Positions 26,239-54,929 of a DNA stretch of 64,000 bases are shown one piece after another. The notes beneath the pieces are model-generated. The model did no database searches. It was not told the origin of the DNA and was given only the letters and a program-made list of their open reading frames with translations. A program made the position numbers and the translations under genes. This DNA is from Xestospongia muta (taxonomy: Eukaryota > Porifera > Demospongiae > Haplosclerida > Petrosiidae), in contig OY848919.1 in the NCBI GenBank assembly GCA_963693285.1, forward strand, positions 4,159,827 through 4,223,826, written 5' to 3'. Each line of letters opens with the position of its first letter. Position 1 is the stretch's first letter.

Positions 26239-27486
26239 CTAATGTTTTTCTTCTACTTCTAGCATTTTCTTTTCATTTTCATCTTCAATGAATGATGTTT
26301 CAGCTGACATAACACCTTCTACCTGTGACTCAGTCTTCATACTTTCTAAAGCTGTCTCAGTGATAGTCTCTCTTTTTTTCTTAATGGAAGCCATAGTTGT
26401 ATACAGAGGGTTAGTTACCCTAATGAAAGATTTATTGCGTTTTGTCGTAAATACAGATGCTGTAAGTTCATTAAAATCTTTGCCTGAAACATTAAAGAAC
26501 CATCGTTTCCAAACATTTCTTGCTTCCTTAGAACGAAGACAATGCATTATAAAGATGAACAGACCGTGAAAGGCAGTAATAATCACAAAAAATGCGGCAA
26601 AGACATCTCGTATTGTCTTATTGGTATGGATATCTTGAGTGGCTAACAGTCCAATACCCCATCCCAGACCAAACAAGATTGACAATGTTGTAACTATAAC
26701 AATTTGCTCACGGACAAATTGTATATTAGTAGTTTTCTTTGATTTGATATTGGACTGGAAGCTTTTTCGTAGAAGAGAGACAATAATGATAATGAATACC
26801 ACCCAATTGAATATATATACGATCAGAAATGGAACTACCATACCAATATAATATGGTTCATTAAATGCACGACAACTATAAATAAAATATAGACATTTAT
26901 ATACAAACATAACAAGTGTACTTACAAATGATCACTCAAGTAGTTTTTATAATTTGGAGCAAAACAGAACAGAACAATGAATAATGGAGTAACTACAAGT
27001 AAGAAATGACTATAGTTAAACTTATAACATCAGTACTCACTCCATGATAATATGGTTGCTTTTAAAACAAATCGATGAATTTTCTTCCCAAGAACAATCA
27101 CTAAATTCATATACAAGTTGATAGCCTCAGCAGCCATGACCATAAATGTAACAAGAAAAAAATATTGCAACACAGCAGCTGTAAGTGCACAAAGACCAGG
27201 GACAGATTGACTGTGTACAGCAAAAATGAAGGCAATGTAGAGACCAGTTAAAGCAAAACACAAATTAAGAAGAAGTTGTCCATGATCAGAACTACGTAAT
27301 TTCCTATCAGGACATGTACAACATAATAATGAGTATAAATTAAATAGTATACTTGTTAGCAAGGTAAGAGATAATAGTAATAGTTAGACAAAAGAGAGAG
27401 ACAATGATACCAATGTAAGTCACAGAATTTAAGAACAATGTCACTCCAGTTTGCTCTGTTGGTTCATCAATAACAGGAGATACATC
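26239..27486 (-). CDS. Copy B seven-transmembrane exons, frameshifted after TM1
   Basis: Exons 27041-27486 (TM1-TM3), 26926-26992 (TM4) and 26239-26875 (TM5-TM7 and tail). Adhesion-GPCR marks: [15 protein letters not shown] in TM2, [17 protein letters not shown] with an acidic residue in TM3, [17 protein letters not shown] in TM6, [15 protein letters not shown] in TM7. After TM1 ([20 protein letters not shown]) the sequence has one more T than copy A, giving TAA at 27340-27342; after that, the frame is open again to the end. As written the product would end just inside TM1. The tail carries a lysine-rich stretch and acidic end. TM5-TM7 keeps an intact frame, which suggests either recent damage or a base-call error. 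Confidence 0.8.

Positions 27487-54929: not shown

Follow-up and report, generated by a model that had tools for sequence, protein, structure and literature searches.

A predicted adhesion GPCR with 40 SRCR domains and its tandem gene family in the sponge Xestospongia muta

Adhesion GPCRs carrying SRCR repeats have been described from a sponge before. Passages of Krishnan et al. 2014 report two such receptors in Amphimedon queenslandica, Aq712029 and Aq715659, each with multiple SRCR repeats and called unique to the authors' best knowledge, and place HRM domains in at least eight Amphimedon adhesion GPCRs (PMC4302439). In a survey giving Amphimedon 296 SRCR genes, the units of duplication are described as one or two SRCRs long; its Table 1 places 7tm_2 in the top five domains that accompany SRCR in the starfish Acanthaster planci but not in Amphimedon (PMC10855680). 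Transcripts of Halichondria panicea are reported to include over 600 SRCRs together with 57 GPCRs that bear a GPS (PMC8242945). A comparable joining of domains is described in Trichoplax sp. H2, where 28 of 36 CTLD receptors are given as CTLD fused to a Secretin/Adhesion 7TM (PMC6321704).

Here we analyzed 64,000 nt of Xestospongia muta DNA (GCA_963693285.1, contig OY848919.1, positions 4,159,827 to 4,223,826; hereafter the window), for which a gene fusing 40 SRCRs to an adhesion-GPCR tail had been proposed as an architecture outside the described standard ones. That assessment of novelty was not borne out, since the described parts of earlier work and public gene models already contain SRCR-repeat adhesion GPCRs in Amphimedon (PMC4302439), SRCR with GPS and 7tm_2 in two Ephydatia models, and 7tm_2 with SRCR in A. 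planci (PMC10855680). The gene studied here, gene 1, agrees with the Amphimedon-type description in having multiple SRCR repeats N-terminal to 7tm_2 (PMC4302439); the kind of receptor is already known, and gene 1 is a scaled-up version of a type from another sponge. As far as we searched, the new elements are the array length, the tandem cluster, the position-by-position conservation of arrays and the modularity. Among titles and the opening parts of abstracts, figures and supplements excluded, we found no paper naming arrays this large, a cluster of this kind or an exchange of arrays on a constant tail.

Gene 1 lies on the minus strand and runs from 54929 to 26239 of the window, confirming both predicted end points. 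It comprises 96 phase-compatible exons encoding 5533 residues, in the order signal peptide, 40 SRCRs, EGF, Ig, a weak HRM, GAIN, GPS and 7tm_2 (Table 1). The sole stop sits at the end of the chain, with none inside the 5533 codons, and the proposed continuous run from signal peptide through the SRCRs into the tail thus stands as a 96-exon open chain. Two SRCR half-exon profiles, each built from 12 seeds taken from the window itself, gave 162 matches across the 64 kb, every one of them on the minus strand (i-E<0.01, split matches counted). Between 54929 and 30309, the profile matches amount to 40 'a' half-exons strictly alternating with 40 'b' half-exons, in agreement with the predicted count of 40 SRCRs. 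A chance or frame artefact as the source of the array is ruled out by the restriction of matches to one strand together with this alternation. Two half-exons of phase 1-1 make up each SRCR, except that SRCR 1 has its first half divided over two exons; overall, 81 of the 96 exons are of phase 1-1 and the median intron measures 50 bp. SRCR groups A and B are distinguished by rules on cysteine number and exon number; for comparison, exactly eight cysteines occur in 36 of the 40 SRCRs of gene 1, with two exons per domain. AG and GT borders were required when splice sites were picked, manually and by script, and the canonical AG/GT at all 95 introns is therefore partly by construction; the borders of SRCR 9a, GPS2 and TM1 were likewise placed at AG/GT sites, after which the chain was open. 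The informative part of the model is the uninterrupted open chain and the strict alternation of half-exons rather than the canonical borders. Inspection of split SRCR matches revealed no lesion in gene 1.

The Pfam scan of gene 1 covered two pieces, SRCR 1-4 and SRCR 37 to the protein end. All eight SRCRs in these pieces matched PF00530, while the remaining 32 of 40 are assigned by the profiles seeded from the window. Checked in this way on the spliced translation, the proposed domain list EGF-Ig-HRM-GAIN-GPS-7TM held for Ig (Ig_3), GPS (PF01825) and 7tm_2 (PF00002, covering positions 4-250 of 250), whereas EGF and HRM (PF02793) scored below their cut-offs and GAIN was recognized through PDB alignment only (values in Table 1). 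The HRM call is plausible but not certain. Pfam GAIN gave no match in the scanned tail; the region instead aligned to chain residues 529-776 of ADGRG6 6v55 with an E value of 1e-20, and alignment to PDB chains identified the GAIN-GPS-7TM part as homologous to ADGRG2 and ADGRG6 (E 1e-46 for the latter). The CNHLT of the gene 1 GPS is kept in the alignment with ADGRG6, and H-L-T at the GPS is a cleavable motif under the adhesion-GPCR cleavage rule. Judged by sequence, gene 1 is a predicted adhesion GPCR, combining 7tm_2, a GPS with cleavable-type H-L-T and a GAIN region before the GPS.

Table 1. Parts of gene 1 and position of gene 2; coordinates refer to the window unless marked C3.
Feature	Position	Strand	Details
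Exon 1, signal peptide and first strand of SRCR 1	54846..54929	-	Start ATG, phase-0 donor; matching exon before 9/10 arrays, the tenth cut by the edge of the 260-kb region
SRCR 1-2	53712..54803	-	Exons 54803-54677, 54629-54465, 54417-54232, 53894-53712; Pfam SRCR 4/4 in SRCR 1-4
SRCR 3-18, locally expanded	43271..53143	-	Six two-SRCR units, 875-994 bp, 89.1-98.6% pairwise identity
SRCR 3-18, starts	53143, 52721, 52161, 51738, 51178, 50756, 50184, 49762, 49301, 47788, 47224, 46802, 46242, 45822, 45367, 43700	-	
SRCR 19-23	37905..43224	-	Starts 43224, 42307, 41860, 41406, 40930
Intron between half-exons of SRCR 23	40769 to 38069	-	2699 bp
SRCR 24-34	32937..37855	-	Starts 37855, 37393, 36967, 36533, 36088, 35502, 35080, 34629, 34187, 33728, 33311
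SRCR 35-40	30309..32890	-	Starts 32890, 32455, 31975, 31554, 31121, 30705; Pfam SRCR 4/4 in SRCR 37-40
Array-EGF intron	29861..30308	-	448 bp; donor CAAG/GTAAGA, acceptor TTACCAG/CA (slash, exon border)
EGF-like exon, phase 1-1	29750..29860	-	Pfam EGF E 7e-4 (below cut-off); matched in paralogous tails
Ig exon, phase 1-1	29410..29697	-	Pfam Ig_3 E 1.6e-13
Linker	28935..29363	-	Exons 29363-29275, 29220-29138, 29089-28935; no Pfam family above cut-off; co-linear with Amphimedon P0001 by eye
HRM-like exon	28610..28875	-	Pfam HRM 19.4 bits, cut-off 26.2; Amphimedon P0002 23.4 bits
GAIN	27786..28559	-	Exons 28559-28428, 28381-28287, 28236-27786; aligned to ADGRG6 chains 6v55, 21du
GPS	27538..27737	-	Exons 27737-27686, 27641-27538; Pfam GPS E 1.5e-16; predicted cleavage site matches CNHLTHFGILMD of ADGRG6
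7TM and cytoplasmic tail	26239..27486	-	Exons 27486-27353, 27303-27041, 26992-26926, 26875-26239 (stop); Pfam 7tm_2 E 3e-26, ADGRG2 E 1.1e-50
Gene 2, 26 SRCRs	15193-386; tail C3:4159556-4155931	-	Second family gene

Gene 1 belongs to a tandem family. Within C3:4100001-4360000, a 260-kb region that includes the window, we found ten same-strand genes, each with an SRCR array followed by EGF-Ig-HRM-GAIN-GPS-7TM. Counted by strict a/b alternation after merging split matches, they carry, in order of falling coordinate, at least 12 (cut at the region edge), 16, 38, 18, 44, 18, 40, 26, 46 and 18 SRCRs; the 40 of gene 1 are not the longest array, as neighbors reach 44 and 46. Twelve split SRCR matches across the ten genes were inspected, of which two were judged real lesions, both outside gene 1, and the others were merged for the counts as in-frame insertions within one domain or cross-matches of one profile on the other half-exon. 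Gene 2 has a frame break in the first half-exon of SRCR 3 (11952-11795), and the 46-SRCR gene contains a stop within one SRCR. Nine tails reach the 7TM inside the region, two of these lacking a match to the small T4 exon; the region end truncates the tenth tail, whose HRM, GAIN and 7TM matches go on at C3:4097058-4099484. In the gene at the upper end of the region, array and EGF are separated by an Ig-like match (29%).

Further family sequences lie on the minus strand of the window. The 3' end of the upstream family gene occupies 64000-62275, and beyond it, at about 61035-60067, lies a second partial GPS-7TM copy without an array of its own; an extra partial GPS-7TM copy also occurs behind the gene starting at C3:4292773. 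At 25935-19193 and 19220-18444, a truncated SRCR run lacking signal peptide and 7TM ends in EGF_CA domains (Pfam 1e-11 for 18444-18665). This one SRCR run in the window without the shared kind of tail looks like a partial duplicate of the array, and its mix of SRCR and EGF_CA is reminiscent of the Ephydatia models discussed below.

Comparison of gene 1 with four paralogues revealed ordered arrays: most SRCR half-exons best-match gene 1 in near-colinear order, and SRCR 19-34 are nearly colinear. The array of gene 2 tracks gene 1 positions 1-3 and 18-40. Positions 3-18 are expanded in gene 1 and in the 44-SRCR gene, in gene 1 through the two-SRCR units listed in Table 1, while a block is repeated in the 46-SRCR gene (about 20 domains) and in the 38-SRCR gene (about 18 domains). 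These unit and block duplications in the compared arrays indicate that differences in array length arise by duplication within an ordered array. Selection was estimated as dN/dS by a simple Nei-Gojobori count that takes no account of gene conversion. For SRCR 19-34 (or 38), gene 1 versus the four paralogues gave 0.29-0.34; for 12-13 tail exons, comparison with eight paralogues in gapless exon matches only (697-909 codons, EGF and T4 exons omitted) gave 0.28-0.40, and no stop was found in the compared exons. By this count, purifying selection acts on tail and array to a similar degree. Separately, the 2.7-kb intron in SRCR 23 (38069-40769) differs in base skew, has short ORFs on both strands and possibly holds a mobile-element insertion. 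A THAP-like transposon had been suspected there by eye; the four ORFs tried gave no Pfam family, clear terminal repeats were absent from the intron and its inverted repeats were weak only.

Tails of the gene 1 type recur widely in the genome (194 matches), and we examined 18 of them. An SRCR array precedes 11, namely the ten in the cluster and one at C3:5.94 Mb, whereas the tail at C2:10.48 Mb is preceded by SRCRs and then Ig and EGF exons. The other six (on C1, C2, C5, C7, C12 and C14) have Ig or other exons upstream and no SRCR within 8.5-9.5 kb; the previous gene was reached at L021 and L024 only, with no SRCR in between, and the pieces at L022, L023, L025 and L026 end before any previous gene, so that SRCRs further upstream are possible. 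The converse arrangement occurs at L029 (C1:15684001-15692000), where an SRCR array that for the most part matches, in order, gene 1 positions 26-34 and after them types 39 and 36/40 stands before a different adhesion-GPCR tail (31.5% identity in the TM2 part). This comparison used 20 of 22 SRCR matches, a short piece and a cross-match being dropped, and treats array and tail as adjoining matches, not as one gene model. A colinear array before a different tail, together with the same tail behind Ig exons, suggests that arrays have been exchanged between tails, in one direction or the other. At L026 (C2:14413001-14422000), Ig exons are repeated at about 1-kb spacing before the same EGF-Ig tail, parallel to the SRCR unit expansion. 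Genome-wide, we observed at least 173 SRCR and at least 158 7tm_2 matches in many clusters, including, on C9, 7tm_2 matches (4.74-4.84 Mb) some 100 kb away from SRCR clusters (4.95-5.11 Mb). We tentatively propose a modular repertoire, an idea that may well prove wrong, in which a conserved adhesion-GPCR tail takes swapped whole ordered arrays of SRCR or Ig domains that grow by block duplication, yielding germline-diversified, force-reporting receptors for microbe or self recognition.

The fusion of SRCR array and adhesion GPCR in gene 1 is very probably real. As originally predicted, array and tail behave as one gene, a view supported by the open chain, the ten like-ordered paralogues, the splice phases, the similar dN/dS and the absence of a signal-peptide match between array and EGF. 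The arrangement could also reflect two neighboring genes that were always co-duplicated, one for a secreted SRCR-array protein (or an isoform that terminates after SRCR 40) and one, beginning near 29.9 kb, for an EGF-Ig adhesion GPCR of its own. In keeping with that, read-through past the second half-exon of SRCR 40 reaches a stop after 20 residues, the array-EGF intron holds five polyA-like hexamers against 2.9 expected from shuffles, and this intron exceeds in length all but 5 of the 80 introns before it. Phase-1 symmetry permits two genes as well: phase 1-1 exons are common among extracellular modules, and phase fit alone is therefore no proof of joining. Yet the intron contains neither an ATG in frame with the EGF exon nor an ATG-led piece with a phase-1 GT able to splice to it, and a search with the signal-peptide exon of gene 1 as the sole query found matches ahead of nine arrays and four weak ones (32-50%) within arrays but none between array and EGF in any of the ten genes. 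Including two genes elsewhere in the genome, all 12 genes checked have a phase-1 GT donor no more than 4 bases from where the last SRCR match ends and, at most 14 bases from the EGF match, a phase-1 AG acceptor. The array-to-EGF distance is 449-1139 bp in all ten cluster genes, and the last tail match is followed by the next signal peptide only after about 3.9 kb or more in nine of nine cases, a distance obtained by subtraction with partial extra GPS-7TM copies counted as tail and with some tail matches ending short of the C terminus. The EGF exon behaves as an internal exon, since the same exon comes after Ig exons at other loci, and joined forms exist as an Ephydatia model and as the Amphimedon proteins described in PMC4302439. 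We therefore regard two separate genes as improbable; the hexamers and the stop 20 residues past SRCR 40 nevertheless make transcripts ending after the array, and hence a secreted array isoform, possible. A further reading, which takes the array length for an artefact of assembly or recent duplication and the true gene to have far fewer SRCRs, draws on the identity of up to 98.6% among the units of SRCR 3-16, whose copy number rests on the assembly. Against this, SRCR 19-40 are distinct domains whose order is largely kept in paralogues, and 26 SRCRs would be left even without SRCR 3-16, equal to the number in gene 2, which makes this reading very improbable.

The best explanation, which we consider probable, is that gene 1 is a single adhesion-GPCR gene with 40 SRCRs from a tandem family sharing one tail, in which the array would serve as a multivalent binder and the tail as a tethered-agonist signaling unit under pull. 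By analogy with what is known of the receptor family, and given the conserved GPS, the array, perhaps about 200 nm long if extended (estimated at 4-5 nm per domain), would bind repetitive ligands multivalently, the likeliest candidates being microbial surfaces or matrix polysaccharides that filter-feeding cells encounter. The GAIN domain is predicted to cut itself at HL/T; a pull on the array by a bound particle, flow or a neighboring cell might then shift or remove the N-terminal part, and the freed tethered peptide TNFAILLD could activate the 7TM and its G protein. Array blocks may be duplicated within genes, and whole SRCR or Ig arrays may be exchanged before the conserved tail, both of which would diversify the gene set. 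Alternatively, the fused receptor might serve mainly in sponge cell adhesion or self-recognition rather than microbe sensing, with array length setting the reach and the 7TM reporting contact. Adhesion GPCRs typically bind other cells or matrix, and SRCR positions are largely kept across the compared paralogues under purifying selection, which would suit fixed protein partners better than an arms race. Array length, however, varies between paralogues, and sponge SRCR genes are described as responding to bacteria or bacterial products (PMC6208332, PMC7308585) and, in a review, as enriched in choanocytes and responsive to bacteria (PMC7308585). On the strength of these expression studies, as described, microbe sensing is the function we favor by analogy, and a role mainly in adhesion seems unlikely to us.

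Should the preferred reading of a multivalent, signaling receptor be true, a greatly expanded immune-type SRCR family of sponges would be tied directly to G-protein signaling at scale, and receptors would have diversified in a sponge by array exchange on a constant signaling tail. The family would also offer a concrete set of genes with which to examine a role of adhesion GPCRs in recognition at the base of the animals.

Relatives in other species were sought in a protein collection, that is, among annotated proteins. The first search considered the best 120 of 229 matches, proteins of about 0.55-1.75 times 1424 aa; a second with a 3200-aa query gave 16 matches and a third, started from P0128, gave six. 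The proposed check for a like architecture in other sponges recovered the SRCR-GPS-7tm_2 combination in two gene models with the prefix Em, which we take to be Ephydatia. Em0151g10a (P0128) and Em0023g296a (P0135) combine SRCR, EGF, GPS and 7tm_2 in one protein but, unlike gene 1, hold 13 and 11 SRCR stretches, respectively, among many calcium-binding EGFs; each shows two GPS stretches and could have arisen by the merging of models, and Em0151g10a is 24% identical to the queried tail over 64%. The gene 1 tail itself, EGF-Ig-HRM-like-GAIN-GPS-7TM, is present in the Amphimedon hemicentin-1-like proteins P0001 and P0002 (58% and 51% identity), which differ in carrying Ig and Ig plus fn3, respectively, and no SRCR. 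Similarly, the Trichoplax sp. H2 'Hemicentin-1' P0124 has Ig, HRM, GAIN, GPS and 7tm_2 in its precomputed Pfam list (27% identity over 34% of the queried tail), but an Ig array and no SRCR in that list. ADGRG2 and ADGRG6 share the homologous GAIN-GPS-7TM; to our knowledge, neither carries an SRCR array. Among large SRCR proteins, P0129 of Patiria miniata is like gene 1 in its long array of 28 SRCR stretches but has Sushi, EGF and LDL-receptor repeats, and no 7tm_2 was found in it. Placozoan C-type-lectin adhesion GPCRs, as described in PMC6321704, resemble gene 1 in placing immune-type recognition domains on a 7TM, with CTLD in place of SRCR. Close by description are Aq712029 and Aq715659, which like gene 1 are sponge 7tm_2 receptors with multiple N-terminal SRCR repeats (PMC4302439); compared by description only, those are two genes, whereas the X. 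muta cluster comprises at least ten, which carry as many as 46 SRCRs ahead of a defined EGF-Ig-HRM-GAIN tail.
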